Below, one piece after another: positions 14,455 to 51,839 of a stretch of DNA of 64,000 nt. Numbering within the stretch: position 1 is the first letter of the stretch; each line of letters opens with the position of its first letter. A program made the translations under genes and the position numbers. Under the pieces are notes generated by a model. It ran no database searches and had not been told where the DNA came from. It saw only the letters and a list, made by a program, of their open reading frames with translations. The stretch covers positions 2,108,001 to 2,172,000 of the forward strand of contig OY751487.1 in the NCBI GenBank assembly GCA_963565915.1. The letters run 5' to 3'. Source of the DNA: Entoloma clypeatum. Lineage: Eukaryota; Basidiomycota; Agaricomycetes; Agaricales; Entolomataceae.

Positions 14455-14790
14455 TGTCATGTAGTGTTTTTCTCAACATCGGAAAATGTTGGACGAGTCG
14501 GAGCGGAGTAGTGGAGGAGCAGATGCGATAAGTGTGACGTTGGCAGAAAGGACCTGGCTTCAACTTGTGCATTGCGCCCCACTCTTTGACGTGGTCCTCA
14601 ATTTCGGATTGGCAGATGTTGGATGAGCAGATGAGCAGATGAGTGGAGGTGACGGAGAGAATGCTCAAAAGCAAGTAGAGACGGATGCGAATGAGGTGTA
14701 ACATATGATATTTGAACTGAGGTTCTATGACAGGTTTGTACACTATTAATAGTAGACTAGAATGACCAGCATTACTATAAGTGATGTGCA
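14455..14790 (-). repeat. 3' LTR of Gypsy E, distal part
   Basis: This is the end portion of the minus-strand 3' LTR. It aligns with 8977-9285 of the Gypsy A LTR. It ends at GTGCA (14786-14790), the left TSD of the Copia array. Confidence 0.85.
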
Positions 14791-15139
14791 TAATGATGTA
14801 TCCGACGTAGGCAGCCCAAAGGGCGCTCAAGACGTAGCGGTACGAAGGCATAGTGGAAGCTCAACTAACCTGGTTAAGAGTAACTAAAGGAAATCTAGAA
14901 GCTATACTAGCTTGTTAGTTAACTCAAAGAACTGGGGTGTTCAAGAAGTTAGGATTCATCGTACTAAATACATGGGTATTTATACTAATCCAATATGCGC
15001 ACGGACCATTGTACAAACAATACATAAACAAGTCATGCGTCCGTGGTTGTACCATAAACTCACATATATGGTAATAGTGACTTATAGTCACTTCCTGTGA
15101 CAAGCACATGGTGCGACATATCTGGCGATATGTTCAACA
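14791..15139 (-). repeat. Copia LTR 1 (outer, 3' end of array)
   Basis: 349 bp. On the minus strand it begins TGTTGAACATATCGCC and ends TACATCATTA, so the ends are TG...TA rather than TG...CA. It follows the polypurine tract at 15140-15151 (AGTGAGGGGGAG on the minus strand). Here the leader ATG inside the LTR runs on into flanking Gypsy sequence. Confidence 0.9.
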
Positions 15140-15146
15140 CTCCCCC

Positions 15147-18100: not shown

Positions 18101-20363
18101 ATTTGCTATAAGTCGCCCTCTTGAATTGCTTTAAATCCGAATGGATTAGCTCAAGAGGTGCTTTAGCGCGTGTCTGAGATGGTGGGAAAGATTTTGAAGG
18201 CATCTTTCCAAGAGCGCATCCTTTGCAGGGTCGCTCAGTGGACGGTTTGTCCACTCCATTGAAACCTTTGACATGTTTAGAAGCATGTCGCAGTACTTCA
18301 TGTGAAGGGTGTCCGAATCGCTTGTGCCAGGTGTCATAATCAACAGATTGTGAGACACTAAGGCTAACCAAGTGTATTCGTTCCTCTTTAATGATCGTGG
18401 CATTTAGCCAATAAATCGATTCATTTGCCTTATGAGGATAACACATAAACAAAGGAAGACCTGAATTGGTCTTTAGCGTGATCGAACCAAATCGTCCGCT
18501 AATTTCATTTCCTTGTTTAAGGATCTCGCCTACAGATAAAAGACGAACGTCTAAATCTGGTATATAATAAACGGGTGATAGACGAGTTATTTTATTTTGT
18601 TCTCGCCCGTTTTTCTTGATGGTGTGATTAATCAACACCGTCCCTTGTCCAAGGATCTGAATAGTGTGACCTTTCTGTGCAATTTGCACAGATTGACGAT
18701 CTTTTAATGGGGTATACTCAATGAAATCATTGATATCATAAGTAAAGTGCAATGATGCACCTGAATCAAGAATCCAGTTGGATTGATTCTGTTTCTTACA
18801 TTCAGCACAATTCGCATAATGAGAATTTATTTGCGCTATAAGCGCGTGTACAGCAGGTGATATAAATACATTGGACCGCCGTCCATTCACTCGTCTCCAA
18901 AAAGGCTTCTGTGAAGTATTTGTTAACTGCATTGTACGTGCTTTTGAATGTGAAACATACCCCATGTCGTCGTTGTTTCCATCACCACGGGAAACTTCAT
19001 ACTCCATATAGTCATTGACATATCCTTCATCGTAATAGCCCCTTATGGTGGGGGCTATGTCTTCTGTCTCCATCTCATCGGCCCAGCTGATTCTACTTGG
19101 CGTTTCTTCGAAAGCCGGAATGCGGTGATTCCGGGGGTCCATTGTCGGAGGCGCTGAGAGCGGCCTTGACGTTGCAGCTTCATTTCGTTGAAGTGCAGGG
19201 ACCTCGACGAGGCGAGTTAGATTCTGAGCTGTTGGAGGGACACCAATGCTATTAGCTAGTGTACGCGCTCCATCCAGGTCCGTGAAAGGGCCTGGGCCAG
19301 GAATATTACCAATCGCAAGCGATTGGTTGTTCCTTATCCTCCAGTCGGTGGATGATGAGGGGTGCGGAGTGAAGATAGACCCATTTCCGTAAATGACCGT
19401 GTTGGGTAAGGTCTGGATTGGAAGCTGCCCATCAGGGGCGCTATCCATGGCAGAGGAGGCAAAATGCGCCTTCTCTTTACCTTTCCAGGGTCCTTTGCCC
19501 TTGGTCTTCCCGGCAGAAGTTCCTCGTCCCTTGCCTTTCCAGGGCTTGGAGTGCTGATGCGAATGCTGCTGATTAGCAGCCGGTCCTTCCGAAAATCCCT
19601 GAGAGGGTCCAGTGCGAGGCTGGTACTTCGGGGGGTTGGGACGAGCGCGTTTTACTGCAGAGATTTTGTTCGCGTGAGCACTTCCTTGGGACTGTGGAGC
19701 GTGCGGGTTTTTACGGAAGTATTCCGAGCGTATTTGCTCGATTACCTTCCCGATTTCGAGTACTGTGGACTGATTGCCGCCAGGCGCCACATAGTGCACC
19801 GCATCAAAGAGGATGCTGTGTACTAGACCATCATAGCCCTGAGGCAGTCCATTCAGGATCATCATGATCCGGACGAACTTGGGGATGTCTATATGGTTGT
19901 GCTCAAGTCGTTGGAAGAGGGTCTGCATCTTATCGATGCCAGATAAAGGATCGGCGGGAGAAAGAGAGGTGCGGAGGAGTTGCTGGAAATCAGCAAAAAC
20001 GGTGGACGGGCCGACCGTAGACAGTTTAGTGGCGATCAGGTCCCACATCTCCTTGGAGGTTTTAGCTCCCTTGATGTGATGGACGAGAGAGTCCGAAATG
20101 GACATCTGGATTAGGCCCTGGGCCTGATCGTCCTGTTCATGCCAAGTGTTTAACTTGTCTTGGAAATCTGTCTCTTTAGGATCAGCCGGGAACTTTTTGT
20201 CGCCGGTGACGATCCTCCACACTTTAGCTGCCTTCAAGTAGGCGCTCATTTTCTCCTGATAGACGGAGAAGTTGGTGGTGGTGAGCTTGGGAACGGAGGA
20301 AGCGAGGTCGAGTTTTGAGTTTGAAGACATGATGATGCTGCGAAACATAAATAGAATCAGCAT
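15147..20363 (-). CDS. Copia Gag-Pol polyprotein, unit 1 (1738 codons, intact)
   Basis: A single uninterrupted Ty1/Copia polyprotein. The likely start is the Met in MSSNSKLDL (residue 12 of the open frame). Gag comes first (residues about 15-210, UBN2-like, with MWDLIATKLSTVGPSTVF), then a Lys/Gly-rich stretch (KPWKGKGRGTSAGKTKGKG) in place of a CCHC knuckle. The protease has WILDSGASLHF near 531. The integrase has an HHCC zinc site (HKRFGH...CKGCALGK) and catalytic Asp, Asp, Glu near 743, 805 and 839. Reverse transcriptase has YVDD near 1407, and RNase H has TDSDWASD near 1574 and SSTEAEMVA. The stop codon lies inside the polypurine tract. All catalytic motifs are present, so it looks competent. 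Confidence 0.96.
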   Translation of the reverse strand: MLILFMFRSIIMSSNSKLDLASSVPKLTTTNFSVYQEKMSAYLKAAKVWRIVTGDKKFPADPKETDFQDKLNTWHEQDDQAQGLIQMSISDSLVHHIKGAKTSKEMWDLIATKLSTVGPSTVFADFQQLLRTSLSPADPLSGIDKMQTLFQRLEHNHIDIPKFVRIMMILNGLPQGYDGLVHSILFDAVHYVAPGGNQSTVLEIGKVIEQIRSEYFRKNPHAPQSQGSAHANKISAVKRARPNPPKYQPRTGPSQGFSEGPAANQQHSHQHSKPWKGKGRGTSAGKTKGKGPWKGKEKAHFASSAMDSAPDGQLPIQTLPNTVIYGNGSIFTPHPSSSTDWRIRNNQSLAIGNIPGPGPFTDLDGARTLANSIGVPPTAQNLTRLVEVPALQRNEAATSRPLSAPPTMDPRNHRIPAFEETPSRISWADEMETEDIAPTIRGYYDEGYVNDYMEYEVSRGDGNNDDMGYVSHSKARTMQLTNTSQKPFWRRVNGRRSNVFISPAVHALIAQINSHYANCAECKKQNQSNWILDSGASLHFTYDINDFIEYTPLKDRQSVQIAQKGHTIQILGQGTVLINHTIKKNGREQNKITRLSPVYYIPDLDVRLLSVGEILKQGNEISGRFGSITLKTNSGLPLFMCYPHKANESIYWLNATIIKEERIHLVSLSVSQSVDYDTWHKRFGHPSHEVLRHASKHVKGFNGVDKPSTERPCKGCALGKMPSKSFPPSQTRAKAPLELIHSDLKQFKRATYSKYNYYISFVDDYTSHAWISLLRLKSDAHSALRDFNAMVKNQFNTSIKTWRFDGGGEFVPFQADMREMGIQGEVTVPHQPQQNGRAERFNRTLMDKALAMLHDACLPEIWIQFAVEHALHLYNRTPLKRHGWLTPYESLKKEKPDVSNLHVFGCGAYVFLPKEIRTTTAKSELMIFIGFKTGTKGYRFMRIPNNVVFIGVTAMFDEQLFPKCSTMNKIPSITQYHDPTSDDMGNDDANGHDGPSVLPTDDFHSEDNNAHGPGGSHYPSNPGTHDDNHNLPDTNSDQTGQLPEGSDQTSDGTNRQDTAENQQWVPRTRNPGKRVRIDAPNDDRTLPGDYRPQTDRPRRTRVIPQRPGNVYGNNPAEALRQNQRDWSRTVQEDSRRYAYNPRSETRPQQSGAVPSTSSADPQMYQNNSNPNPDINMEELLYIREGGGQSQMLAHLLSKAIPAYDEIPQDPKSWQMKDINKLPEKEKLEWKAACREELEALRKRNVFKLVDLPKGRKTIRNRWVFDVKTDGRKKARLVAKGFSQIEGIDFDEIFSPVIRFETIRILFAVAALEGWVIEGVDVKSAFLYGELDEEIYMNQPEGFVVKGQERKVIRLLKALYGLKQAARAWWIALNASMEKLGFTRCRTDSGVFVYHNKQSGDLIIALIYVDDGLFMGSNPDLVRKIKSDFKNKWESRDLGIAKEFLRMRIRQDSEKQIVTIDQSEYLKKIIKRFGLENAKAADTPLPKGYYPAPNEGEVDPTLKTRYQMIIGSLLYLSIGTRPDIAFAVAKMSQMSANPSKEHEKYALWIIRYLVGTQDYSIIYDGRSKASFEAWTDSDWASDPSDRKSQSGYFLKLAGGLVLWKSRKQKTVAHSSTEAEMVAASECSRECEWVTHLFKELGLQDITKMPFHVDNQGAIFNAQNPVTEGRTKHMAIHHFAIRDRVQDGLIEPRFVPGTENPADMFTKPLGRQEFEKFRALLRMEFKEPYAPLTKPTRDSK

Positions 20364-20419
20364 ATGAAATATCGAAAAAGCGCATCAGAAAATAAATAGA
20401 CGAGCTGCCTTGTCGATCA

Positions 20420-21256
20420 TCATTCTTCGTTCTCTGTTTGGTCTAGTGGTAGCATATGAAATGCCATCACTAGTTCTACCCAATCGTCATGTGCACCCTG
20501 AGTGCTGTGCTGCCCACAGGTGCAAGATCCTCCCTGAATAGGGAGCATGACTTCATTCGCTCTGTTCGCCGCCTCAATTAAGGGGTCATTATCCGGCAAC
20601 CAAATTTGTCGGGCCGGAGGCGAAAGAGGAGGTGCCCCGTGTGCTTCAGGGATGGTCCCATCATCAACATACACGGGCGGAGGATCCGTGGGATCTCCAT
20701 CTTGGGTAGGTACCGCAACAGGTACCTCAGTATGGCGATTACGCCGTCTGCGGTTTAGAACTCGAGTCCTGGCTGATCCTGCATCACACGTAGTACACGA
20801 GTAGTCAAAAGTGGTGTTGTCTATGCAATGCCTTGGGCAATGCTGACTGTCAACAACAAGTTGCCGACACACCCCGCATCGTGCAACGATGCGTCCATTG
20901 TCATCAAGACCTGAAGGGACTGAGCCCTGTGCCGTTGGCACCATATGGACTTGCTCTCGTGATACGATCATTGTAACAGGGATTCTCTCAAGCAATCGAT
21001 CAAGAATGGCCCATTGAAAGGTACATTCAATACCTCGAATGCTGCGAGGTTCACCGTCGAGGGAACCGTCGAGCTCGATGTACTCGATGCTGAGGAAACC
21101 AGTCTCCAGGGTAGCATACAAAGCGGATGCTGCCAATAGTAGCGCAAAAGCTAGGATGCTTAGAGCATGCGGCGCTAGGGCCGGGGCCCATAACCTAATG
21201 ATGTATCCGACGTAGGCAGCCCAAAGGGCGCTCAAGACGTAGCGGTACGAAGGCAT
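20420..21256 (-). CDS. Copia leader ORF, unit 1: predicted membrane, Cys-rich protein (278 codons)
   Basis: The ORF starts at ATG 21256 inside the shared LTR, crosses the LTR end and the primer-binding site, and stops 57 nt before the open frame of gag-pol. Two hydrophobic segments occupy residues 4-20 and 32-50 (LSILAFALLLAASALYA). A cysteine-rich core near 128-160 has the spacing CX2C-X9-CX3C-X9-CX2C (CGVCRQLV, CPRHC, CTTC). A basic stretch RRRRNR and an acidic tail follow. No stop interrupts it across 832 nt of leader. I recognise no family. It could be an acquired accessory gene, an env-like protein or an upstream ORF that tunes gag-pol translation. Confidence 0.65.
   Translation of the reverse strand: MPSYRYVLSALWAAYVGYIIRLWAPALAPHALSILAFALLLAASALYATLETGFLSIEYIELDGSLDGEPRSIRGIECTFQWAILDRLLERIPVTMIVSREQVHMVPTAQGSVPSGLDDNGRIVARCGVCRQLVVDSQHCPRHCIDNTTFDYSCTTCDAGSARTRVLNRRRRNRHTEVPVAVPTQDGDPTDPPPVYVDDGTIPEAHGAPPLSPPARQIWLPDNDPLIEAANRANEVMLPIQGGSCTCGQHSTQGAHDDWVELVMAFHMLPLDQTENEE
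21184..21195 (-). promoter_or_regulatory. Copia primer-binding site, unit 1 (half-tRNA-iMet type)
   Basis: Directly abuts the LTR end at 21196. The element-sense sequence GGTTATGGGCCC is complementary to GGGCCCAUAACC, the anticodon stem-loop of eukaryotic initiator tRNA-Met, and not to a tRNA 3' CCA end. Yeast Ty5 and Drosophila copia are known to prime from iMet half-tRNAs. Confidence 0.75.
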
Positions 21257-21544
21257 AGTGGAAGCTCAACTAACCTGGTTAAGAGTAACTAAAGGAAATC
21301 TAGAAGCTATACTAGCTTGTTAGTTAACTCAAAGAACTGGGGTGTTCAAGAAGTTAGGATTCATCGTACTAAATACATGGGTATTTATACTAATCCAATA
21401 TGCGCACGGACCATTGTACAAACAATACATAAACAAGTCATGCGTCCGTGGTTGTACCATAAACTCACATATATGGTAATAGTGACTTATAGTCACTTCC
21501 TGTGACAAGCACATGGTGCGACATATCTGGCGATATGTTCAACA
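21196..21544 (-). repeat. Copia LTR 2 (shared central LTR)
   Basis: 349 bp and identical by eye to the other two LTRs. It serves as the 3' LTR of the upstream unit (after the purine tract at 21545-21556) and as the 5' LTR of the downstream unit (before the PBS at 21184-21195). On the minus strand TATAAATA lies about 125 nt before the leader ATG, with ATTGG (inverted CCAAT) just upstream. Confidence 0.92.
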
Positions 21545-21551
21545 CTCCCCC

Positions 21552-24500
21552 TCACTTAGAATCCCGGGTAGGTTTCGTAAGTGGAGCATAAGGCTCTTTA
21601 AACTCCATTCGGAGTAGAGCACGGAATTTCTCAAATTCCTGGCGACCAAGTGGCTTGGTAAACATATCAGCCGGATTTTCTGTTCCCGGAACGAACCGTG
21701 GTTCGATCAATCCATCTTGAACTCTATCGCGTATAGCAAAATGATGGATTGCCATATGTTTGGTTCTGCCTTCAGTGACTGGGTTTTGCGCATTGAAAAT
21801 CGCGCCTTGGTTATCTACATGGAACGGCATTTTGGTAATGTCCTGTAGTCCAAGCTCTTTGAAGAGATGAGTAACCCATTCGCACTCCCGCGAACATTCA
21901 CTGGCAGCAACCATTTCCGCCTCAGTGGACGAATGTGCCACTGTCTTTTGCTTGCGACTTTTCCAAAGAACAAGTCCTCCTGCAAGCTTAAGGAAATATC
22001 CCGATTGGGACTTTCTATCAGATGGGTCTGATGCCCAGTCTGAATCTGTCCATGCTTCAAAGGAAGCTTTGGATCGACCATCATAGATTATAGAATAGTC
22101 TTGAGTACCGACAAGATATCTGATAATCCATAGAGCATATTTCTCATGCTCTTTGGAAGGGTTTGCAGACATTTGTGACATTTTTGCAACTGCAAAAGCA
22201 ATGTCCGGTCTCGTTCCAATGGACAAGTACAACAACGATCCAATGATCATTTGGTACCTCGTTTTGAGTGTGGGATCCACCTCCCCCTCATTTGGTGCAG
22301 GGTAATAACCCTTTGGGAGTGGAGTGTCAGCAGCCTTTGCATTTTCTAAGCCAAAGCGCTTAATGATCTTCTTCAGGTATTCTGACTGATCGATTGTTAC
22401 GATCTGCTTTTCTGAATCTTGTCGTATTCTCATACGCAAGAATTCTTTAGCAATACCAAGATCACGACTTTCCCATTTATTTTTAAAGTCAGATTTTATC
22501 TTGCGAACAAGATCTGGGTTTGATCCCATGAACAGGCCATCATCAACATAGATCAAAGCGATTATCAAATCACCTGATTGTTTGTTGTGGTAAACAAAGA
22601 CGCCTGAGTCAGTTCTACATCGAGTAAAACCTAGCTTCTCCATTGATGCATTGAGCGCGATCCACCACGCTCTTGCAGCCTGTTTAAGGCCATAGAGTGC
22701 TTTTAATAAACGGATGACCTTCCGTTCTTGGCCTTTGACAACAAAGCCTTCGGGTTGATTCATATAGATTTCTTCATCGAGCTCTCCATAGAGAAAAGCT
22801 GATTTGACATCTACTCCTTCAATCACCCATCCTTCAAGCGCAGCTACGGCGAAGAGGATTCGGATAGTTTCGAAACGTATCACGGGTGAGAAGATCTCAT
22901 CAAAATCGATACCCTCGATCTGTGAGAAACCCTTGGCAACGAGTCGTGCCTTCTTTCGTCCGTCAGTTTTGACGTCGAATACCCATCGATTTCTGATGGT
23001 TTTACGACCTTTAGGCAGGTCAACCAACTTAAAGACATTGCGCTTCCGGAGGGCTTCTAGTTCCTCACGGCATGCTGCTTTCCATTCAAGCTTTTCCTTT
23101 TCAGGTAGCTTATTTATGTCCTTCATTTGCCAAGACTTTGGGTCTTGTGGAATTTCGTCATATGCAGGGATTGCTTTAGATAGCAGGTGCGCAAGCATTT
23201 GTGACTGTCCTCCCCCTTCCCTAATATAGAGTAATTCCTCCATATTTATATCCGGATTCGGATTGGAATTGTTCTGATACATCTGAGGATCAGCGGAGCT
23301 AGTTGATGGAACAGCGCCAGATTGCTGGGGTCTGGTCTCCGATCGGGGATTATAGGCGTATCGCCGTGAATCCTCCTGAACGGTTCTGCTCCAATCACGC
23401 TGATTTTGACGCAAGGCCTCAGCCGGGTTGTTCCCGTAAACATTTCCAGGACGCTGGGGTATAACCCGAGTACGACGAGGACGATCAGTTTGTGGACGAT
23501 AATCGCCTGGTAAGGTACGATCATCGTTTGGTGCATCTATGCGCACACGTTTCCCTGGATTGCGAGTCCGGGGAACCCACTGCTGATTCTCAGCGGTGTC
23601 CTGTCTGTTTGTTCCATCAGAAGTCTGATCGGAACCTTCGGGAAGCTGACCAGTTTGGTCGCTATTTGTATCAGGGAGGTTATGATTGTCATCATGGGTT
23701 CCTGGATTAGACGGGTAATGTGAACCGCCAGGACCATGTGCATTATTATCTTCCGAATGGAAATCGTCGGTTGGTAAAACAGACGGGCCATCATGTCCAT
23801 TTGCATCATCGTTTCCCATATCGTCTGATGTTGGATCATGGTATTGTGTTATCGAAGGTATTTTGTTCATTGTAGAACATTTTGGGAACAGCTGTTCATC
23901 AAACATTGCTGTGACACCTATGAAGACTACGTTGTTTGGAATTCGCATAAACCGGTAACCTTTAGTTCCAGTTTTAAATCCGATGAAGATCATCAGCTCG
24001 GATTTAGCGGTGGTAGTACGAATTTCTTTTGGAAGAAAGACGTAAGCTCCACATCCAAAAACGTGTAGGTTCGACACATCAGGCTTTTCCTTTTTAAGGG
24101 ACTCATACGGAGTAAGCCATCCATGTCTTTTCAATGGAGTTCGGTTATACAAGTGAAGTGCATGTTCTACCGCAAATTGAATCCATATTTCGGGTAGGCA
24201 AGCATCATGCAACATAGCAAGTGCTTTATCCATTAAAGTTCTGTTAAAACGTTCTGCACGACCGTTTTGTTGTGGCTGGTGCGGCACAGTAACTTCACCC
24301 TGGATTCCCATCTCACGCATATCTGCTTGGAAAGGGACAAACTCACCGCCGCCATCAAAACGCCAAGTTTTAATTGACGTATTGAATTGGTTTTTAACCA
24401 TGGCATTAAAATCACGAAGTGCAGAGTGTGCATCGGATTTTAGTCTCAATAAAGAGATCCAGGCGTGTGATGTGTAGTCATCAACAAAGCTGATATAATA

Positions 24501-26768
24501 ATTATATTTGCTATAAGTCGCCCTCTTGAATTGCTTTAAATCCGAATGGATTAGCTCAAGAGGTGCTTTAGCGCGTGTCTGAGATGGTGGGAAAGATTTT
24601 GAAGGCATCTTTCCAAGAGCGCATCCTTTGCAGGGTCGCTCAGTGGACGGTTTGTCCACTCCATTGAAACCTTTGACATGTTTAGAAGCATGTCGCAGTA
24701 CTTCATGTGAAGGGTGTCCGAATCGCTTGTGCCAGGTGTCATAATCAACAGATTGTGAGACACTAAGGCTAACCAAGTGTATTCGTTCCTCTTTAATGAT
24801 CGTGGCATTTAGCCAATAAATCGATTCATTTGCCTTATGAGGATAACACATAAACAAAGGAAGACCTGAATTGGTCTTTAGCGTGATCGAACCAAATCGT
24901 CCGCTAATTTCATTTCCTTGTTTAAGGATCTCGCCTACAGATAAAAGACGAACGTCTAAATCTGGTATATAATAAACGGGTGATAGACGAGTTATTTTAT
25001 TTTGTTCTCGCCCGTTTTTCTTGATGGTGTGATTAATCAACACCGTCCCTTGTCCAAGGATCTGAATAGTGTGACCTTTCTGTGCAATTTGCACAGATTG
25101 ACGATCTTTTAATGGGGTATACTCAATGAAATCATTGATATCATAAGTAAAGTGCAATGATGCACCTGAATCAAGAATCCAGTTGGATTGATTCTGTTTC
25201 TTACATTCAGCACAATTCGCATAATGAGAATTTATTTGCGCTATAAGCGCGTGTACAGCAGGTGATATAAATACATTGGACCGCCGTCCATTCACTCGTC
25301 TCCAAAAAGGCTTCTGTGAAGTATTTGTTAACTGCATTGTACGTGCTTTTGAATGTGAAACATACCCCATGTCGTCGTTGTTTCCATCACCACGGGAAAC
25401 TTCATACTCCATATAGTCATTGACATATCCTTCATCGTAATAGCCCCTTATGGTGGGGGCTATGTCTTCTGTCTCCATCTCATCGGCCCAGCTGATTCTA
25501 CTTGGCGTTTCTTCGAAAGCCGGAATGCGGTGATTCCGGGGGTCCATTGTCGGAGGCGCTGAGAGCGGCCTTGACGTTGCAGCTTCATTTCGTTGAAGTG
25601 CAGGGACCTCGACGAGGCGAGTTAGATTCTGAGCTGTTGGAGGGACACCAATGCTATTAGCTAGTGTACGCGCTCCATCCAGGTCCGTGAAAGGGCCTGG
25701 GCCAGGAATATTACCAATCGCAAGCGATTGGTTGTTCCTTATCCTCCAGTCGGTGGATGATGAGGGGTGCGGAGTGAAGATAGACCCATTTCCGTAAATG
25801 ACCGTGTTGGGTAAGGTCTGGATTGGAAGCTGCCCATCAGGGGCGCTATCCATGGCAGAGGAGGCAAAATGCGCCTTCTCTTTACCTTTCCAGGGTCCTT
25901 TGCCCTTGGTCTTCCCGGCAGAAGTTCCTCGTCCCTTGCCTTTCCAGGGCTTGGAGTGCTGATGCGAATGCTGCTGATTAGCAGCCGGTCCTTCCGAAAA
26001 TCCCTGAGAGGGTCCAGTGCGAGGCTGGTACTTCGGGGGGTTGGGACGAGCGCGTTTTACTGCAGAGATTTTGTTCGCGTGAGCACTTCCTTGGGACTGT
26101 GGAGCGTGCGGGTTTTTACGGAAGTATTCCGAGCGTATTTGCTCGATTACCTTCCCGATTTCGAGTACTGTGGACTGATTGCCGCCAGGCGCCACATAGT
26201 GCACCGCATCAAAGAGGATGCTGTGTACTAGACCATCATAGCCCTGAGGCAGTCCATTCAGGATCATCATGATCCGGACGAACTTGGGGATGTCTATATG
26301 GTTGTGCTCAAGTCGTTGGAAGAGGGTCTGCATCTTATCGATGCCAGATAAAGGATCGGCGGGAGAAAGAGAGGTGCGGAGGAGTTGCTGGAAATCAGCA
26401 AAAACGGTGGACGGGCCGACCGTAGACAGTTTAGTGGCGATCAGGTCCCACATCTCCTTGGAGGTTTTAGCTCCCTTGATGTGATGGACGAGAGAGTCCG
26501 AAATGGACATCTGGATTAGGCCCTGGGCCTGATCGTCCTGTTCATGCCAAGTGTTTAACTTGTCTTGGAAATCTGTCTCTTTAGGATCAGCCGGGAACTT
26601 TTTGTCGCCGGTGACGATCCTCCACACTTTAGCTGCCTTCAAGTAGGCGCTCATTTTCTCCTGATAGACGGAGAAGTTGGTGGTGGTGAGCTTGGGAACG
26701 GAGGAAGCGAGGTCGAGTTTTGAGTTTGAAGACATGATGATGCTGCGAAACATAAATAGAATCAGCAT
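21552..26768 (-). CDS. Copia Gag-Pol polyprotein, unit 2 (1738 codons, intact)
   Basis: Identical in amino-acid sequence to unit 1 (15147-20363), with the same domain order Gag, protease, integrase, reverse transcriptase and RNase H. It is driven from LTR 3 (27601-27949). The complete identity of both units means either a very recent event or an assembly duplication, but there is no gap between them. Confidence 0.96.
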   Translation of the reverse strand: MLILFMFRSIIMSSNSKLDLASSVPKLTTTNFSVYQEKMSAYLKAAKVWRIVTGDKKFPADPKETDFQDKLNTWHEQDDQAQGLIQMSISDSLVHHIKGAKTSKEMWDLIATKLSTVGPSTVFADFQQLLRTSLSPADPLSGIDKMQTLFQRLEHNHIDIPKFVRIMMILNGLPQGYDGLVHSILFDAVHYVAPGGNQSTVLEIGKVIEQIRSEYFRKNPHAPQSQGSAHANKISAVKRARPNPPKYQPRTGPSQGFSEGPAANQQHSHQHSKPWKGKGRGTSAGKTKGKGPWKGKEKAHFASSAMDSAPDGQLPIQTLPNTVIYGNGSIFTPHPSSSTDWRIRNNQSLAIGNIPGPGPFTDLDGARTLANSIGVPPTAQNLTRLVEVPALQRNEAATSRPLSAPPTMDPRNHRIPAFEETPSRISWADEMETEDIAPTIRGYYDEGYVNDYMEYEVSRGDGNNDDMGYVSHSKARTMQLTNTSQKPFWRRVNGRRSNVFISPAVHALIAQINSHYANCAECKKQNQSNWILDSGASLHFTYDINDFIEYTPLKDRQSVQIAQKGHTIQILGQGTVLINHTIKKNGREQNKITRLSPVYYIPDLDVRLLSVGEILKQGNEISGRFGSITLKTNSGLPLFMCYPHKANESIYWLNATIIKEERIHLVSLSVSQSVDYDTWHKRFGHPSHEVLRHASKHVKGFNGVDKPSTERPCKGCALGKMPSKSFPPSQTRAKAPLELIHSDLKQFKRATYSKYNYYISFVDDYTSHAWISLLRLKSDAHSALRDFNAMVKNQFNTSIKTWRFDGGGEFVPFQADMREMGIQGEVTVPHQPQQNGRAERFNRTLMDKALAMLHDACLPEIWIQFAVEHALHLYNRTPLKRHGWLTPYESLKKEKPDVSNLHVFGCGAYVFLPKEIRTTTAKSELMIFIGFKTGTKGYRFMRIPNNVVFIGVTAMFDEQLFPKCSTMNKIPSITQYHDPTSDDMGNDDANGHDGPSVLPTDDFHSEDNNAHGPGGSHYPSNPGTHDDNHNLPDTNSDQTGQLPEGSDQTSDGTNRQDTAENQQWVPRTRNPGKRVRIDAPNDDRTLPGDYRPQTDRPRRTRVIPQRPGNVYGNNPAEALRQNQRDWSRTVQEDSRRYAYNPRSETRPQQSGAVPSTSSADPQMYQNNSNPNPDINMEELLYIREGGGQSQMLAHLLSKAIPAYDEIPQDPKSWQMKDINKLPEKEKLEWKAACREELEALRKRNVFKLVDLPKGRKTIRNRWVFDVKTDGRKKARLVAKGFSQIEGIDFDEIFSPVIRFETIRILFAVAALEGWVIEGVDVKSAFLYGELDEEIYMNQPEGFVVKGQERKVIRLLKALYGLKQAARAWWIALNASMEKLGFTRCRTDSGVFVYHNKQSGDLIIALIYVDDGLFMGSNPDLVRKIKSDFKNKWESRDLGIAKEFLRMRIRQDSEKQIVTIDQSEYLKKIIKRFGLENAKAADTPLPKGYYPAPNEGEVDPTLKTRYQMIIGSLLYLSIGTRPDIAFAVAKMSQMSANPSKEHEKYALWIIRYLVGTQDYSIIYDGRSKASFEAWTDSDWASDPSDRKSQSGYFLKLAGGLVLWKSRKQKTVAHSSTEAEMVAASECSRECEWVTHLFKELGLQDITKMPFHVDNQGAIFNAQNPVTEGRTKHMAIHHFAIRDRVQDGLIEPRFVPGTENPADMFTKPLGRQEFEKFRALLRMEFKEPYAPLTKPTRDSK

Positions 26769-26824
26769 ATGAAATATCGAAAAAGCGCATCAGAAAATAA
26801 ATAGACGAGCTGCCTTGTCGATCA

Positions 26825-27661
26825 TCATTCTTCGTTCTCTGTTTGGTCTAGTGGTAGCATATGAAATGCCATCACTAGTTCTACCCAATCGTCATGTGCA
26901 CCCTGAGTGCTGTGCTGCCCACAGGTGCAAGATCCTCCCTGAATAGGGAGCATGACTTCATTCGCTCTGTTCGCCGCCTCAATTAAGGGGTCATTATCCG
27001 GCAACCAAATTTGTCGGGCCGGAGGCGAAAGAGGAGGTGCCCCGTGTGCTTCAGGGATGGTCCCATCATCAACATACACGGGCGGAGGATCCGTGGGATC
27101 TCCATCTTGGGTAGGTACCGCAACAGGTACCTCAGTATGGCGATTACGCCGTCTGCGGTTTAGAACTCGAGTCCTGGCTGATCCTGCATCACACGTAGTA
27201 CACGAGTAGTCAAAAGTGGTGTTGTCTATGCAATGCCTTGGGCAATGCTGACTGTCAACAACAAGTTGCCGACACACCCCGCATCGTGCAACGATGCGTC
27301 CATTGTCATCAAGACCTGAAGGGACTGAGCCCTGTGCCGTTGGCACCATATGGACTTGCTCTCGTGATACGATCATTGTAACAGGGATTCTCTCAAGCAA
27401 TCGATCAAGAATGGCCCATTGAAAGGTACATTCAATACCTCGAATGCTGCGAGGTTCACCGTCGAGGGAACCGTCGAGCTCGATGTACTCGATGCTGAGG
27501 AAACCAGTCTCCAGGGTAGCATACAAAGCGGATGCTGCCAATAGTAGCGCAAAAGCTAGGATGCTTAGAGCATGCGGCGCTAGGGCCGGGGCCCATAACC
27601 TAATGATGTATCCGACGTAGGCAGCCCAAAGGGCGCTCAAGACGTAGCGGTACGAAGGCAT
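26825..27661 (-). CDS. Copia leader ORF, unit 2 (278 codons)
   Basis: Identical to the unit 1 leader ORF: the ATG lies inside LTR 3, the first 20 codons are LTR-encoded, the next four cover the primer-binding site, and the rest fills the leader up to gag-pol. Two N-terminal hydrophobic segments, a Cys-rich centre and a basic patch are present. As a non-tandem 5' leader, this copy shows the arrangement a single element would have. Confidence 0.65.
   Translation of the reverse strand: MPSYRYVLSALWAAYVGYIIRLWAPALAPHALSILAFALLLAASALYATLETGFLSIEYIELDGSLDGEPRSIRGIECTFQWAILDRLLERIPVTMIVSREQVHMVPTAQGSVPSGLDDNGRIVARCGVCRQLVVDSQHCPRHCIDNTTFDYSCTTCDAGSARTRVLNRRRRNRHTEVPVAVPTQDGDPTDPPPVYVDDGTIPEAHGAPPLSPPARQIWLPDNDPLIEAANRANEVMLPIQGGSCTCGQHSTQGAHDDWVELVMAFHMLPLDQTENEE
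27589..27600 (-). promoter_or_regulatory. Copia primer-binding site, unit 2
   Basis: The same 12-nt match to the initiator tRNA-Met anticodon arm as at 21184-21195, immediately next to LTR 3. The match ends after GGGCCC; the next base differs from the tRNA complement. Confidence 0.75.
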
Positions 27662-27949
27662 AGTGGAAGCTCAACTAACCTGGTTAAGAGTAACTAAAGG
27701 AAATCTAGAAGCTATACTAGCTTGTTAGTTAACTCAAAGAACTGGGGTGTTCAAGAAGTTAGGATTCATCGTACTAAATACATGGGTATTTATACTAATC
27801 CAATATGCGCACGGACCATTGTACAAACAATACATAAACAAGTCATGCGTCCGTGGTTGTACCATAAACTCACATATATGGTAATAGTGACTTATAGTCA
27901 CTTCCTGTGACAAGCACATGGTGCGACATATCTGGCGATATGTTCAACA
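27601..27949 (-). repeat. Copia LTR 3 (outer, 5' end of array)
   Basis: 349 bp, with the same ends as the other LTRs. The TATA motif is TATAAATA on the minus strand (plus 27786-27793). It abuts the right TSD GTGCA at 27950-27954. Confidence 0.92.
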
Positions 27950-28161
27950 GTGCAGATATCGGAGTTGACCATTGGAACATTCAGAGTACGGAGAGTAGCA
28001 AATGAAAAGTGAACAACATATGTCTACTTGTAAGTATGGTTGAGATGTTACGTAGTAGAAGTATAATCAAATATAAATAGAATGTTGTTGGAGCGGATGT
28101 CAGAGCGGATGAATCGTCGGAGTCGTTGGATAAGTCGGATGTGAATTGTATGGTTATGACA
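27950..28161 (-). repeat. 3' LTR of Gypsy E, proximal part
   Basis: On the minus strand it begins TGTCATAACC at 28161 and runs to the Copia TSD. It is immediately preceded (28162-28178) by the purine tract AAGAGGGAAA, as expected of a 3' LTR. It aligns with 34461-34664. Confidence 0.88.
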
Positions 28162-28292
28162 GTATTTCCCTCTTAGGGCCGAACCCTGAGGCCCAGATGA
28201 GGTAATCCACGTGACCGTTGGTTGAAAAGCTTTGCACGTGATTTTTCTCTCTTGTCACCCAACCACAACATCTATCCCGTCGCCTATCCGCT

Positions 28293-29257
28293 ATGTCCGC
28301 TGAGAACTCACCCCTCGCCACTCTTCGTGCTGAAAGGGAGCGCCAGAAGAAGGTCACTGAAGAGTTGGAGAGGAAGCTGCAGGAGGCAGAGGAGCACATG
28401 AAGGAAGATGCAGAGCGCGTGGAGGCGAAAAGGGTGGCAAAAGAGTGGAGACGAGCAGAGAGGAAGGCAGAGAAAGCAAAGGCGAAGGAACCGGTTGCGG
28501 GTGCGGATGCGGATGCGGCGAATGCAGAGATGAAGAAGGTCCGGCTGCAGGGGGTTTTCAAGGATATGCCTGCGAGTTATGAGCAGGGGAAGGAGGATTG
28601 CACCTCCTGCTTGAAAGCGGGGGACTTGTGTTTTTGGCCATCAGAGTGAATTTTTTCTATTTCTTTATACGCTTTGTTATTAACTTGTTCTTTAGGAATG
28701 ACAACGCTTCGTCGTGCTGGCGGTGCCAGCGTTTAAAACAAAGCTGCAGAACGGGAGCGGAAGCGGAGTCGGAGGTGAAGCGGAGGATGACCAAGGTGGT
28801 GAGGGTTGGAAAGGCTAAGGTGGCAGGTGGTGCGACGAAGAACATGAAGGTGGGATCGTCCAAGGGAGAGGGGACCGCGGAGGGATCGCGGATAGCCGCA
28901 GCGTCGGAGGAGCCAGAGTTCATGCTGGAGGGGTTTGGTCCGCCGGAGGTGGTCATAGGCACGGAGGTGGTGAGAGGACTTAGGAGCATGATAAGGGAGA
29001 TGCAGCTAATAAAGGCAGAGTTGAAGGAATTGCGGGAAATCAAGGAGCTTCTGACGGTTATCATGTGGAGGGAGGATTCAGAGGCTTTGGAAGAGGGATC
29101 TGATGAGGACGAGGATGCGGAGGAGTATGATAGGATATTGGAGGAGTTGGCAAAGGAGGTAGAAGAAGGAAGAAGAAACAAAGAAGCGGAAGAGAAATCC
29201 AGATCGGAGTGGAATGAGGAGACAGAGGGGGTATCTAACAAAAAACAGCGAAAGTAG
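28293..29257 (+). CDS. Zn2Cys6-pattern protein encoded antisense inside Gypsy E (2 exons, 304 aa)
   Basis: Exon 1 is 28293-28645 and exon 2 is 28696-29257; the 50-nt intron is GTGAAT...TTTAG and the phase closes to 304 codons. Residues 27-90 are a Lys/Glu/Ala-rich probable coiled coil. Cys 103, 106, 113, 125, 128 and 135 give CX2C-X6-C-X11-CX2C-X6-C, the spacing of fungal Zn2Cys6 clusters, and the intron falls between the two halves. The tail holds KELREIKELL and a strongly acidic stretch (EGSDEDEDAEEYD). The first loop lacks the usual basic residues, so DNA binding is not assured. The gene lies between pol (ends 29303) and the purine tract and 3' LTR of Gypsy E, on the opposite strand. Function unknown; it could regulate the element or be cargo. 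Confidence 0.78.
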
Positions 29258-29302: not shown

Positions 29303-32300
29303 TTACAAGCGCGATAAGGGGCCTGGCTTAGCTGGTTGAGCGGAGTGGAAGTCCGCTACCGTATCCACTGCATGTTCAAGCTCGGATGTGGGTAACCAAG
29401 AAAACTCTTCACTGGTGTCTTCATAACCTAACCAGCGGACGAGGTAAAGGAGTTTGCATCATTGTCTTTTATCAATCTTTGAGTCGACGATTTCTGCAAT
29501 TTCATATTTGGTTTCTCCTTCGATCTCGAGTGGAGACAGAGGAGATTGTGTCTGATTTGGAATCTTGTTAGGAGTTGCTGGTTCAAGCATGGATATGTGG
29601 AAGACGGGGTGTATAGCATGCATAGTGTTGGGTAGATGTAGTGTAAAGGAGTGTGTGCCGGGTTGGGCTATGATTTCAAATGGGCCAGCATATTTGTCGG
29701 ATAACTTTTGGGTGGGTCGTGTGGTGCGGAAGAACTTGGCTTTAACAAAGACTTCTTGTCCGATGCGGAGCGGAGGAGGCGGAGAACGTCGGACATCTGC
29801 AGGGCCTTGATAACGTTGTTGTGCCTCTGCAACAGCAGTCTTTAGTTCTTGATGTAATTCATCTAAGTCGACGATGTATTGTCGAGCTTTATCGGATGCT
29901 AGATCACATTCCGGATGGAGTGTAATGTCGGGATGATAACCTTTGTTGGCGAAGAATGGTGATACACCAGTAGTGGCACTCGGAGTGTTGTTGTAAGCGA
30001 ACTCCGCAAGCGGAAGCAAAGCGGACCAGTTGTCTTGCTGGTAGTTGCAGAAGATGCGGAGGTATTGTTCGAGTGTTTGGTTGGTGCATTCGGTTTGACC
30101 ATCACCTTCAGGGTGATATCCAGAAGTGAAGTGAAGTCTCATGTTGAGGGCTTTTGCAAGAGAGTGGAAAAAGCGGGAGACGAATTCAGGTCTGCGATCG
30201 GATGTGACATTTTGCGGAACTCCGTGCTTGGAAAAGACATGAAGCATGAAAAGGTTTGCTAGGTCTTCGGATGTGCAATTAATGGTGGTAGGAATGAAGA
30301 TGCCTTGTTTAGTGAGGCGGTCTACAATGACCAGAATCGCATCGGAGCCAGCGGATGTCGGAAGGGGTTCAATGAAATCCATGGAAATAGAATGCCAGGG
30401 ACGTTCAGGAATAGGGAGTTGTTTAAGCAGACTGTAGGGTTTATGATGTTATGGTTTGGCGTGCATACAAGTGGTACATGACTTGCAATACTTTTTGACG
30501 AAGTCGCGCATTCCAGGCCAAGTGTATTCTCGTTGGATAAGACTAATAGTCTTATTTTGACCAGGGTGTCCAGCGAGGATATGGTCGTGCTTATTGCGGA
30601 GGATGCGGAGACGGAGGTCGGATGAGTCGGGAACGTAGATACGTCCATTGTGGAGTAGATAACCTGCTTCATTCACGATCCAGCGTGGATTAGGATTGTC
30701 GAGGAAAGAGGTATAAATGGGATCGGTCGGAAGAGCGGAGAGGATGTCAGAGCGGAGCTGATCTGTATCCATGATGATTGTGGCACGGAGGACGGGTGTA
30801 TATAACTCTGTTGCGCGAAGTGAAGTGGTGAGCTGTTCTTGTGTGAAGATGGGTTTGAAGTTGCTTGGGTTGATGGACGAATAGTCGCTATTTCCCTCTT
30901 TAGGGTAGACGTCCCATCGTCTACTTAAAAGATCGGGCCTCGTACCTAAACGGCCAGGGCGGAAGCAGATGACGAGATTGAACTGGCAGAGGTATTCAGA
31001 CCAACAAGCTTGTCGACGTGATAAAATCTTGGTAGTAGAAAAGTACTCAAGATTTTTGTGGTCCGTTACGACATCGATCGGAGCAGCGGAGCCTTCAAGG
31101 TAGTGACGCCAAACCTTGAATGCATCATGGATCACTGATAGTTCTTTGTCATGGGTGTCATAGTTTAACTCAGGAGGTGTAAAGGTGCGGGAGTGGAAAG
31201 CGACCGGATGGATTTCATTGTCGGAGGTGCGGATGGAGAGGATCACACCCAAAGCATAGTCGGAGGCATTGGTTTCAACAATAATAGGGCTGTCGGGAAT
31301 CCAATGTGTAAGAACAGGTGCCGTGGTAAAGGCTTTCTTCAAGGTGTTGAAAGATTTGAGAGCGGAGTCGGAGAAGTGCCATTGTGTGTTTTTGCGGGTG
31401 AGTTCAGTGAGCGGAACAGTGATTTCGGAGTAGTAAGGAATGAATTGTCGATAAAAATTGGCAAAACCTAGGAAAGATTGTATATCTTTGACCTTCCTTG
31501 GTTCAGGCCAATCTTGAATAATTTTGACTTTCTTATCCGACATCCGGAGGCCTGTCGGAGAGAGGATAAAGCCAAGGTATTCAACAGTATCCGTAGAAAA
31601 CTCGCATTTGTCTGCGCGCACATATAAGCCATGTTGTCAGAGGACTTCACGGACATGCTTCCAATGCTCGGAGGGAGAGTCGGAGTAGATGAGGATGTTG
31701 TCAAGATATATGGTAACATACTTATCAAGCAGGCCGTGGAAGATGTCGTTCATGAAGCGTTGAAAAACGGCTGGGAAGTTGGTGAGTCCAAATGGCATGA
31801 CAAGCCATTCAAAAGACCCATAGCGCATGCGGAAGGAAGTTTTCCATTCATCTCCTTCCGCTATGCAGACGAGGTGATAGGCATGTTGGAGGTCAAGAGC
31901 CATATAAACACTGGCTTTTCCAGCGGTCTGGAGAAGGTCGGATATGAGCGGAAGCGGATATCGGTCCTTCTTTGAGATTTTGTTAAGACCACGGAAATCG
32001 ACGCAAAGACGAAGGGAGCCATCCTTTTTACGAACGAAAAGGACGGGAGCACCGTGCGGGGAGGAAGAGGGTTGGATGAATCCAATGGTGAGGTGTTCGT
32101 CAATGAATTCACGGAGGGCATTGAGTTCGGTTTGTGAAAGGGAGTAGATCGGACCGAACGGAGGAGCGGAGCCCTGTTCAAGTTCGATTTTGAGGTCATA
32201 GGGACAGTGGGGTGGAAGAGTGTCTGCTTTTCCTTTACTGAAGACGTCAGCATAGTCGTGGTATTCTTCGGGTACGTTTGTCAAGTCGGGGGTGTCGGAA

Positions 32301-32965
32301 GCGGATGCGGAGTGAGCGGAAACGGAGGGAGTCGAAAGGTGAAGTCGAAAGGATTGTGTACCAGGCAATTTGCATGCCCTCATAAATGCGGCTGCGTTAA
32401 TGAGTGAAATCTGCGGAGGTACGATCAGAGGTTCCGGAGGAGGAAGCGTAGCTGTCCTACCTTGGGAGGAGGTCGACGTCGATGTCGGAAACGGCTCTTT
32501 TTGCATCTGTGGACGGAAAGTGATACTGCCCAATACCCAGTCAATCATAGGATTGTGGCGGGTGAGCCAGTTGTATCCAAGAACCACGGAAGAAGCGGAG
32601 TTGAGCGGAGTAACATAAAAATCCTGTTCAAAAGGTTCACCTGAAGGAAAACATATAGGTATTGTTACAACTTGAGTGATAAATGCGTTAGAAGAACCAT
32701 CGAAAAGCTTTAGTTCTAAGGGTGGAATAGCGGAGGTCGGAAGATCATAGGTGGAGGAAAAGTTATTGTCAATAAAACAGTGGGTAGATCCTGAATCAAT
32801 AAGTGCTGGGACAGAATCTGAAGAGAAAAAAGAAGATGAGATATTGATACGTAAAGAGTTCGGATCGGAGAGAGCAGACACGTTAAGTCGGATGGGAGTG
32901 GAGGCACAGAGAGAGTCAACACAGTCCTCAGACCATGCTTCATGAGGACCACTGCCTATTTTTTT
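29303..32965 (-). pseudogene. Pol of Gypsy E (protease, RT, RNase H, integrase, chromodomain) with three nonsense codons
   Basis: One continuous frame, -1 relative to gag, interrupted only by TGA at 31637-31639, TAA at 30449-30451 and TGA at 29459-29461. Domains in order: protease with [10 protein letters not shown], and reverse transcriptase with VDFRGLNKI and an active site YLDN at 31697-31705 where YLDD is expected. RNase H has VETNASDYALG, the integrase zinc site has HAGHPGQ-type and CKSCTTC motifs, the integrase core has GDGQTECTNQTL, and the chromodomain is LYLVRWLGYEDTSEEFSWL. The missing catalytic Asp and the stops make it inactive. Several lesions are C-to-T type changes. Confidence 0.9.
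32959..32965 (-). promoter_or_regulatory. Probable programmed -1 frameshift site of Gypsy E
   Basis: In gag frame the sequence is TCA AAA AAA TAG, giving the slippery heptamer A AAA AAA just before the gag stop. Pol is open in the -1 frame across this point with no ATG start. Nine nt downstream of the heptamer, GTCCTCA and TGAGGAC can form a perfect 7-bp stem with a 12-nt loop. The same layout occurs in Gypsy F. Confidence 0.72.
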
Positions 32966-33801
32966 GACTCGATCTCCTTACTTTTTTCCTTGGCTTGAGT
33001 GCCAACTTGGGTGGCTTTCCCTCTAGCCTTGGAAGCGGAGGAGGTGGACTTGGGACAGTCCTTGACAGCATGTCCGACGCTACTGCAGAATAAGCAAAGG
33101 TTATTATCAAAACGACGTTTGCGTTCTTGATACGTCAGTTTGCCGTCTTTGCCTAATTTACTGGAGAGGTCGGGTTTCGGAGCGGATGTGGAAGCGGAAG
33201 TGGTAGCGGGAGCGGAGGGTTTGGTTGATGATGTTTGTGCAGTGGATTGGTTTGGAGCAGATTGGTTTCTTGTCGGACTTGGGAGTGGGTTTATCGGTTC
33301 TGGATTTCTCTCGTTGACGTTCCCAGTACCAAGCGTCAATAGTATGAGCTGCATGCAGATCATAGGTCTGGTAAAGACTTGATCTTGGGTTGTTAAGAGA
33401 GGATGTCCTTGATCCGATCCGGAAGTCCGACGTAGTAGCAGTGTCAGAGGGAGTTTTCATCCCAGTCAGTCTTGGTAGCAAGATGTTGGAATTCAACATT
33501 GTACTTCAATATCTTTTGATTTTTCTTCATCCGTAGGTTGTCCAACTGTTCTTCGGCTTCGCCCTGAGGGTCAATGGTACCAAACTCGGAGCGGAGAAGT
33601 CAGACAAACTCGGGGAAAGAACCCCGCCAATTGGGTTCATCATCATCAAGAATGAAGGGTTCAAAAAATTCGAGTGCTGTGCCTCGGAAGTAAGACATGG
33701 CAAAGTTGACTTTGGAATGTTCTGAGTCAAAGTTGTCGTTGTCGGAGAAGTAAAGTTTGCATTGTAAAATGAATCTGGAGAGTTTGCGTGGATCAGATCC
33801 T

Positions 33802-34258
33802 GTTATGGTTGACAAACCCATGCGATGCTTAGGCAGAGAGGCTTAAATAGCAAAGGCAGATACCAAGGTGATTGCTAGATCTGGGGAATACATGCAATGT
33901 ATGTACCCTATATATACTAGAAGGTCGAGTCATCTAGATGACTCTAGAGCGGTTCCGGTCTGACTCCAGAAGCGGACCCGGAGTAGGTGTCTATGGTAAC
34001 TGCTGCGGCGTGAGTCAGAGTATCTAAGTATAGTCCAATAAGTAACACGATGTCAAGGATGTGTGAGAGTAACCATCTAGATATGGTAACGATGACCATA
34101 CTGTAGTGAGTAAGCGGAGGCCGGGGCCCGAATGATGTAAAAGTGAATAGTAAGCATGAAACCAATAGATAAGATGAAACTGGCCATTAATCAGATAAGG
34201 CCTCTATGTCTTGTATCTTGTCCAAGCGATCAATGCCATGGATAGTGAATCCATAACA
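33802..34258. mobile_element. Solo LTR (457 bp) in Gypsy E gag, TSD GATCC
   Basis: Starts TGTTATGGTTG and ends TCCATAACA, with perfect duplications GATCC at 33797-33801 and 34259-34263. Removing it restores the gag reading ...FNGS-DPRKLSRF. The LTR differs from the others in the window. It contains a TATATATA motif near 33910 and the palindrome AGTCATCTAGATGACT near 33927. Confidence 0.9.
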
Positions 34259-34460
34259 GATCCGTTGAAGGTATCCAGTTTGTTGGCATACGACTTTTTC
34301 TTCTTTGTATTACGACGTTTCAACTCTTTGGTCATGAGCAGAATGGCTTCAGCTAGATTGGGTTCCTGATCTGGATTGGAATCGAAGTCGTCCAAATCTC
34401 CATGTAAACTACCGTCGGAAGGAGGAGGAGATCCTCCTGGAGGTCCACTGAATAAGCCAG

Positions 34461-34664
34461 ATCGGAGTTGACCATCGGAACATTCGGAGTACGGAGAGTA
34501 GCAAATGAAAAGTGAACAACATATGTCTACTTGTAAGTATGGTTGAGATGTTACGTAGTAGAAGTATAATCAAATATAAATAGAATGTTGTTGGAGCGGA
34601 TGTTGGAGCGGATGAATTGTCGGAGTCGTCGGATAAGTCGGATGTGAATCGTTTGGTTATGACA
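34461..34664 (-). repeat. 5' LTR of Gypsy E (truncated)
   Basis: On the minus strand it begins TGTCATAACC at 34664 and runs 204 nt before joining gag directly. The rest of the LTR, the primer-binding site and the gag start are deleted. It abuts the TSD TTGCC at 34665-34669. Confidence 0.87.
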
Positions 34665-34669
34665 TTGCC

Positions 34670-36358: not shown

Positions 36359-36361
36359 TAG

Positions 36362-39816: not shown

Positions 39817-39818
39817 TA

Positions 39819-40357: not shown

Positions 40358-40380
40358 TAGTAATAGAGCCACATCCAGCT

Positions 40381-51837: not shown

Positions 51838-51839
51838 TA

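Follow-up and report, generated by a model that had tools for sequence, protein, structure and literature searches.

An antisense two-exon gene with a zinc-cluster-like cysteine pattern in Gypsy retrotransposons of Entoloma clypeatum, and its possible link with mostly one-oriented CGGA arrays

What could be the role of a gene that lies between pol and the 3' LTR of a retrotransposon, on the strand opposite to the genomic RNA, and that is interrupted by an intron? The function of antisense accessory genes in LTR retrotransposons is presented as an open question in PMC7264820. The window analysed here, i.e., the whole stretch of 64,000 nucleotides from the basidiomycete Entoloma clypeatum, raises this question through a gene located at 28293-29257 (+), which has two exons, encodes 304 aa and is opposite in strand to pol of the surrounding Gypsy element. 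Exon 1 (28293..28645, +) includes the start ATG, a charged N-terminal region and a first CX2CX6C half. Exon 2 (28696..29257, +) encodes a basic second CX2CX6C half, a helix-like stretch, an acidic tail and the terminal residues NKKQRK. The intron (28646..28695, +) has 50 nt, is in phase 2, is bordered by GT..AG with the donor GTGAAT in the window copy, and separates the two cysteine halves, residues 103-135 reading CX2CX6C-X11-CX2CX6C. The 131 bp between the 3' LTR and the ATG (28162..28292, +) are the presumed promoter and leader of the gene; CACGTG is present in this stretch (the scan being made in another copy, L035), which also contains, on the opposite strand, the polypurine tract of the Gypsy element (about 28162-28178). 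The gene model of the earlier note on this DNA, a spliced gene antisense to pol whose 50-nt intron splits a six-cysteine cluster, was thus verified, and its observation that the gene lies inside a Gypsy element is confirmed.

The limits of the element were also read as proposed. The target site duplication (TSD) TTGCC is found at 14450-14454, where it precedes TGTCATGTAG, and at 34665-34669, where it follows ..TATGACA. The left copy is distant because a tandem pair of Ty1/Copia elements is nested in the Gypsy 3' LTR, which is thereby split into an internal-side part (27950..28161, -), whose positions 27950-27954 were duplicated as target when the Copia pair inserted, and an outer part (14455..14790, -) ending at the TSD. 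The Copia pair (14791..27949, -) consists of two identical 6754-bp repeats with common LTRs, i.e., three LTRs for two tandem elements (14791-15139, 21196-21544 and 27601-27949). Its target duplication GTGCA is read at 14786-14790 and 27950-27954, it contains one 1745-aa open frame at 21552-26789, and it is a very recent insertion. The pol of this Gypsy copy (29303..32977, -) is broken: it is made of three adjoining open frames parted by stops, with a chromodomain-like tail in another frame. The gag region (32956..34460, -) is split by an insertion, and the 5' LTR is a remnant of 204 bp (34461..34664, -; 533 bp in L035), 96% identical to the partner LTR and followed by the TSD.

Other features of the window are recorded here in their own right. 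The gag insertion (33801-34258; 458 bp, TGTTATGG..CCATAACA, with GATCC on both sides) is probably a solo LTR or a short element. A 281-aa frame with CX2C motifs (26825-27670, -), which lies between the Copia polyprotein and its LTR, might be an accessory ORF of this Copia, and a stretch resembling it (..CCGRCQQLIVDSQHC..) is found in the genomic stretch L051 beside a Gypsy element of another family (family B, see below). Furthermore, positions 35710-47530 and 47731-59555 form an 11.8-kb repeat with 99.95% identity; between the two copies, 200 bases (47531-47730) do not align and are rendered as X in translation. This repeat is either an assembly artefact or a very recent tandem duplication.

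The gene is not restricted to this copy. In the 60-Mb, 20-contig assembly, the antisense protein gives at least 140 matches, corresponding to at least 112 loci once exons are merged (only the best candidates being scored). For 75 of the 85 listed pol 3' ends of the same family (hereafter family A; pol ends listed at 90% identity or more, gene and pol listings both being lower bounds), a match to the antisense gene lies no more than 1.5 kb away on the other strand; the distance to pol is exactly 51 bp in 38 of these 75 copies. Among the ten remaining pol 3' ends, five have a match 2-7 kb away and five have none among those listed. An empty spacer between pol and LTR is therefore not the rule. 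Twenty stretches of 9 kb were taken from the genome: an LTR pair occurs at the expected places in 13 of them (partially in L041), and exact 5-bp TSDs were read in eight of these 13 (L035, L036, L040, L042, L043, L044, L045 and L050). The gene thus moves with the LTRs when the element is copied and is part of this element, as the earlier note had it, rather than being a separate host gene or a one-off capture, and is present in most of the listed copies. The LTRs are 100% identical in four copies (L035, L043, L044 and L045), indicating that family A moved recently. In one stretch, L047, two family-A antisense genes are inverted about 5 kb apart, and the one read is disrupted.

The copy L035 gives the best view of the complete element. 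It is 7278 bp long with LTRs of 533 bp, and its antisense gene starts 131 bp internal to the 3' LTR. Its pol, in three pieces, matches RVP_2, RVT_1, RT_RNaseH, Integrase_H2C2, rve and Chromo, all above the Pfam cut-off; family A is thus a chromodomain Gypsy with protease, reverse transcriptase, RNase H, integrase and chromodomain. Among the first bases downstream of the 5' LTR is ATATTTGAACT, whose complement is at LTR position 279, about 33 bp after a TATAAATA box. This complementarity is reminiscent of Tf1-type self-priming. By its relatives, pol fits an agaric-type mushroom: among the 120 listed, the named ones above 60% identity are from Leucocoprinus birnbaumii (72%), Coprinellus aureogranulatus (71%) and Pleurotus djamor (69% and 68%); a match from the ascomycete Berkeleyomyces rouxiae reaches 42%, and other listed relatives reach up to 79%.

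The intron is a constant feature of these genes. In the 30 top-scoring family-A copies, which include that of the window, it always has 50 nt and GT..AG borders. Over all the family-A copies matched, the donor is GTGAGT outside the window, except in L048 and L049, which have GTAAGT. The ATG is kept in 29 of the 30 (L029 has no 5' end), and the spliced frame is open in 26, L001, L002 and L005 being disrupted and L029 truncated; this intact share is biased upward because the copies are the best matches. Among four more divergent copies, L049 is intact, L047 and L048 are disrupted, and L050 is not matched by the intron pattern. Furthermore, no intron-less exon-exon junction of family A was found in the genome at up to two mismatches. 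Because the gene is antisense, its intron would never be removed from the genomic RNA and would be inherited with the element, as previously suggested; the lack of intron-less junctions fits such a gene, whose splicing is itself predicted.

The antisense gene is under purifying selection within family A. The more diverged pairs give a dN/dS of 0.27 (window-L035) and 0.29 (L035-L049), and the 21 pairs formed by seven intact copies extend from 0.21 to 0.49. For pol, the 28 pairs computed lie between 0 and 0.54. When the same base changes and CpG classes are placed at random, nonsynonymous changes are depleted (30 observed vs 43.2 expected, 50 vs 65.6 and 67 vs 85.8; z -3.9, -3.7 and -3.9, in three pairs that have sequences in common and thus do not count as independent).

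Two further Gypsy families, B and C, also have such an antisense gene in the interval from pol to the 3' LTR. Fragments of family B occur in the window (36146-38700 and 48167-50721), and the pol of family C is 73-74% identical to that of B over a 319-aa segment. The spliced proteins, all in open frames, have 304 aa in A, 296 aa in B (L053) and 287 aa in C (L054). The introns have 50 nt in A, 49 nt in B and 52 nt in C (46 nt in the divergent C copy L055), the value for C depending on the choice of a TAG acceptor, since an AG located 9 nt upstream would give 43 nt and also keep the frame. In the three families the intron is in phase 2 and always lies between the two cysteine halves. The numbers of listed matches are at least 153 (exon 1) and at least 143 (exon 2) for the C gene, and at least 150 for a short form of the B gene used as query. 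In a B copy (L051:159-485, -), an internal deletion removed the intron and the zinc cluster, leaving a frame of about 100 aa that keeps both ends; a family B devoid of cluster, considered from L051, was rejected, as the B copy L053 has the cluster.

The three proteins are only 24-33% identical, depending on the alignment, yet the six cysteines are invariant and both halves are exactly CX2CX6C. Between A (L035) and B, dN is 0.21 for pol (B fragment of the window) and 0.70 for the antisense genes (L053); the antisense gene thus evolves about three times faster than pol while its frame is kept. These data bear on the possibility that the antisense RNA matters rather than the protein, through dsRNA and siRNA or antisense interference. 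Such a role was raised for plant antisense ORFs (PMC7264820), but the purifying selection on codons and the invariance of the cysteines at such low identity make it very improbable here.

What kind of protein is conserved in this way is less straightforward. The Zn_clus spacing is C-X2-C-X6-C-X5..12-C-X2-C-X6..9-C, and the linkers between the two halves, 11, 8 and 10 residues in A, B and C, agree with it; the linker of C is counted with the TAG acceptor and would have 13 residues with the CAG located 9 nt upstream. However, no Pfam model reaches its cut-off with the full A, B and C proteins, and fragments score 15.9, 13.1 and 8.9 bits on Zn_clus (PF00172), whose gathering score is 21 bits. Membership of the Pfam family was therefore rejected: of the Zn2Cys6 label initially given to the gene, the spacing stands and the family assignment does not. 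In Gal4, a Zn2Cys6 protein, basic recognition residues are in the first half. The net charges of the first and second halves are 0/+3 in A, 0/+4 in B and -1/+3 in C, a polarity that is plainly the reverse of that of Gal4 in all three families. The best Zn_clus stretches also appear in swapped order (residues 26-39 of A with profile positions 2-15; residues 2-18 of B with positions 19-35), and doubled queries reach 24.4, 19.3 and 19.4 bits for A, B and C. Among seven cysteine-preserving shuffles of doubled queries, four were reported (20.3, 25.2, 13.6 and 11.3 bits) and three were not. Since shuffles score as high, spacing alone can suffice, and the circular permutation of the Zn_clus halves remains a suggestion.

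The metal site could also be a GATA or treble-clef-like finger (C-X2-C-X15..18-C-X2-C) with two extra cysteines, and no Zn2Cys6 cluster. The fragment of C matches the GATA1-like ADD_DNMT3 model (E 0.0034, 17.7 bits for a cut-off of 26; 15.1 bits with the full C protein), and once doubled it reaches 27.3 bits, above this cut-off and higher than Zn_clus on the same string. However, neither the proteins nor the fragments of A and B match ADD_DNMT3 in the Pfam search, and six invariant cysteines arranged in exact CX2CX6C halves in three families would have to be accounted for, so that this finger is considered unlikely.

Other traits of the proteins, whose length in this lineage is about 290-320 aa, are a charged N-terminus, short basic stretches resembling nuclear localization signals in A, B and C, and a last part of 110 residues with a net charge of -14, -13 and -21, respectively. 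Among 5.8 billion predicted proteins, no relative was found at E 0.001 with a single sequence or at E 1 with the alignment A1, whereas all 7961 candidates scored in this set with pol of the element are relatives of it (120 listed). This lack of relatives says little, because word matching readily overlooks a protein that is spliced and evolves fast. A scan of IMG/VR with pol gave no match, and a PDB sequence search with the A cluster gave one irrelevant match at E 1.5.

Besides the gene, the elements display an unusual abundance of one tetramer. The gene strand of L035 contains 189 CGGA vs 34 TCCG in its 7278 bp, for 34.5 (mononucleotide) or 47.8 (dinucleotide) CGGA expected. On the genomic-RNA strand of the LTR stretches, the TCCG:CGGA counts are 22:0 in A, 21:0 in B and 28:5 in C, for dinucleotide expectations of 3.1, 3.6 and 6.9 TCCG, only one LTR being taken for B and for C with its far end estimated. 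No tetramer is more over-represented than TCCG in the LTR stretches of the three families and in gag-pol of A. In the pol of A, 88 TCCG are observed vs 46.1 +- 4.4 over synonymous shuffles, distributed among the three codon frames (36, 27 and 25); in the same way, 26 are observed vs 14.9 expected in gag, and 15 vs 8.7 in the pol fragment of B, whereas the Copia ORF used as control shows no excess (22 vs 23.9). Protein coding thus does not explain the excess of TCCG. By these counts, CGGA is dense in both the LTRs and the coding regions of the three gene-bearing families, with a strong, though not everywhere strict, preference for one orientation.

The motif comparison concerned five families, i.e., A, B and C plus two comparison families, Copia and Gypsy D. 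The Gypsy D copies of the window were discarded as motif control on account of their CpG depletion (o/e 0.06-0.31), and an intact piece, L056, was used instead. It has 15 TCCG vs 7.1 expected in 1301 bases, and its pol part has 7 vs 4.7 by synonymous shuffling. This mild excess indicates that the motif is not strictly exclusive to gene-bearing families, no antisense CX2CX6C gene being found after pol in the stretches of Gypsy D examined. Gypsy D is abundant, with at least 150 matches listed. L056, which has a long open pol, carries a frame of about 120 aa in sense orientation after pol (MSNITAASTDASDIN..), and no LTR like that of Gypsy D in the window was found in it; in the two window copies, pol and LTR are just about 150-190 bp apart.

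The individual sites are labile. Over 2494 aligned bases of pol, 9 sites are common to A and B, 42 are found only in A and 16 only in B; sites therefore turn over while the density of the array stays. The base before CGGA is G in 47% and T in 38% of cases in A, vs 20% and 72% in B; the array word of B is mostly GTCGGAG, and A has a mixed G or T before CGGA. Such arrays could be a mutational by-product, if reverse transcription produced short tandem duplications that multiplied a tetramer devoid of function. Indeed, 94 of the 188 successive CGGA spacings in L035 are of 5-12 bp, and array length varies a little, with 20-25 LTR sites in L032, L035, L036, L040, L042 and L049 and 13 in L050. However, pol also shows the excess, with almost twice the synonymous expectation and sites in each of the three frames, and a word containing CpG should decay by methylation, yet the young copy L035 has a CpG o/e of 1.25; a purely mutational origin appears distinctly improbable. 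As to protection of the motif CpGs, their loss is slightly lower than that of other CpGs in seven of nine older copies and higher in two, which gives no clear sign.

The arrays might also act in RNA: UCCG would be recognized by Gag or by a host protein and would direct packaging, export or stability, a single orientation being required since only one strand of the RNA counts. The complete strand bias in the LTR stretches of A and B agrees with this, and so does the orientation across the antisense gene of L035, which follows the genomic RNA strand (31:5). Within the antisense gene itself, CGGA exceeds synonymous shuffles only slightly (z 0 in the window copy and 2.4 to 2.6 in L035, B and C), and the C gene has 7 reversed sites vs 2.6 expected (z 4.2). 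On the other hand, 9 of the 22 LTR sites of A lie upstream of position 279, before the presumed RNA start, even if this part of the LTR is also copied at the RNA 3' end, and the targets of the plant protein VANC, which are read as DNA, are one-oriented too (PMC5735166). A role restricted to RNA is thus regarded as quite unlikely.

A function that would link the protein and the arrays can be proposed. The antisense transcript would start near the 3' LTR and be spliced, and the resulting mRNA would encode a predicted nuclear zinc-cluster DNA-binding protein. This putative protein would bind the CGGA arrays of its own family, which contain the CGG half-site, and such binding might keep the element transcribable, the protein being either a transactivator or a sequence-specific anti-silencing factor. 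The proposal derives from the recognition of CGG by Zn2Cys6 proteins, the arrays targeted by VANC and the anti-silencing genes proposed for mushroom transposons, and the link between protein and motif is one of co-occurrence in three related families, set against two comparison families. By analogy with these systems, we give an even chance to a nuclear protein acting on the CGGA arrays of its own family to keep the element transcribable. The fuller version is more tentative: a self-targeting system in which an antisense spliced gene would encode a zinc-cluster protein of reversed polarity, possibly permuted, that would bind one-oriented CGGA arrays in LTRs and coding regions and shield the element from silencing, protein and word drifting together between families.

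The protein may of course be real and nuclear and have another job, such as import of the pre-integration complex, choice of the integration site or binding of Gag or RNA, the arrays being unrelated to it. The antisense product of the plant element Grande is nuclear and of unassigned function (PMC7264820), the cluster of the present protein is assigned by spacing only, and Gypsy D shows its mild motif excess without an antisense CX2CX6C gene in the stretches examined. However, CGG is the classical half-site of the very cluster type to which the cysteine spacing points, and the strongest motif excess among the five families compared is that of the three gene-bearing ones. Such an unrelated function is possible, though on the unlikely side. 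The proposed binding of the arrays by the protein has the advantage that one protein and one tetramer array make it concretely testable.

Several known systems resemble the present one. Boty / BcGypsy1 brtn was reportedly studied by Zhao et al. in 2011. This extra gene of elements from Botrytis cinerea and Sclerotinia is antisense between pol and the 3' LTR (PMC7264820, PMC8365987). The earlier note had cited antisense ORFs at this position from plant Gypsy lineages and considered a fungal Zn2Cys6-like one as new; an antisense gene at this position was in fact already known in fungi, as brtn, also from a fungal Gypsy, shares position and orientation with the present gene (PMC7264820). The host of brtn is nevertheless an ascomycete, and the descriptions by which the two are compared name neither a zinc cluster nor an intron nor motif arrays. 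No zinc-cluster antisense gene of fungal or basidiomycete Gypsy elements was found described in the titles and abstract beginnings of open-licence PMC articles.

In plants, the aORF-3R genes (Grande gene23, RIRE2 and the TRP28 ORF of Retand) are likewise antisense, located between pol and the 3' LTR and present in most copies. The Grande product is nuclear and TRP28 is predicted to bind DNA (PMC7264820, PMC11963269), and tandem repeats occupy this region in about half of the recent Retand elements (PMC11963269). By its position, its opposite strand, its presence in most copies and its coding conservation, the present gene resembles the aORF-3R type; its antisense transcription from an own promoter is predicted. 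As far as the descriptions go, no zinc cluster is reported for the plant genes, whereas the fungal intron splits the cysteine cluster; the words zinc and intron are absent from the Retand update (PMC11963269). Further sources of prior art are PMC4227169 and PMC5987419. Antisense accessory genes are therefore already known, with brtn and Grande, and the zinc-cluster-like form with an intron appears to be a new variation.

As for the protein, Zn2Cys6 factors typically bind, as coiled-coil dimers, CGG triplets that are inverted, direct or everted relative to each other (PMC5559640). The present protein shares with Gal4-type factors two CX2CX6C halves, an acidic region, a possible downstream helix and the CGG half-site, but it differs from them by a score below the curated cut-off, a basic second half, an intron between the halves and its retrotransposon origin. 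Concerning escape from silencing, TET/JBP dioxygenase genes carried by mushroom DNA transposons were proposed to allow escape from silencing by DNA methylation (PMC12730594); these encode an enzyme in DNA transposons, whereas the present gene encodes a DNA-binding-type protein in an LTR retrotransposon.

A likeness in arrangement also exists with VANDAL, a DNA transposon. VANC21 of Arabidopsis binds a short motif that is dense and one-oriented in its own VANDAL family; VANC motifs differ between related families, and VANC induces a loss of DNA methylation (PMC5735166). In both cases a transposon-encoded protein with variable regions accompanies a short and dense motif, mostly in one orientation, that varies between related families (PMC5735166). 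However, VANC motifs are mainly non-coding while the fungal arrays are also found in coding regions; no homology is claimed, and binding and demethylation by the fungal protein are putative. The present families bring together, in one genome, a DNA-binding-type cysteine module, selection, three diverged homologues and a candidate target word. If the proposal is true, LTR retrotransposons would have a sequence-specific self-recognition comparable to that of the plant VANC proteins.
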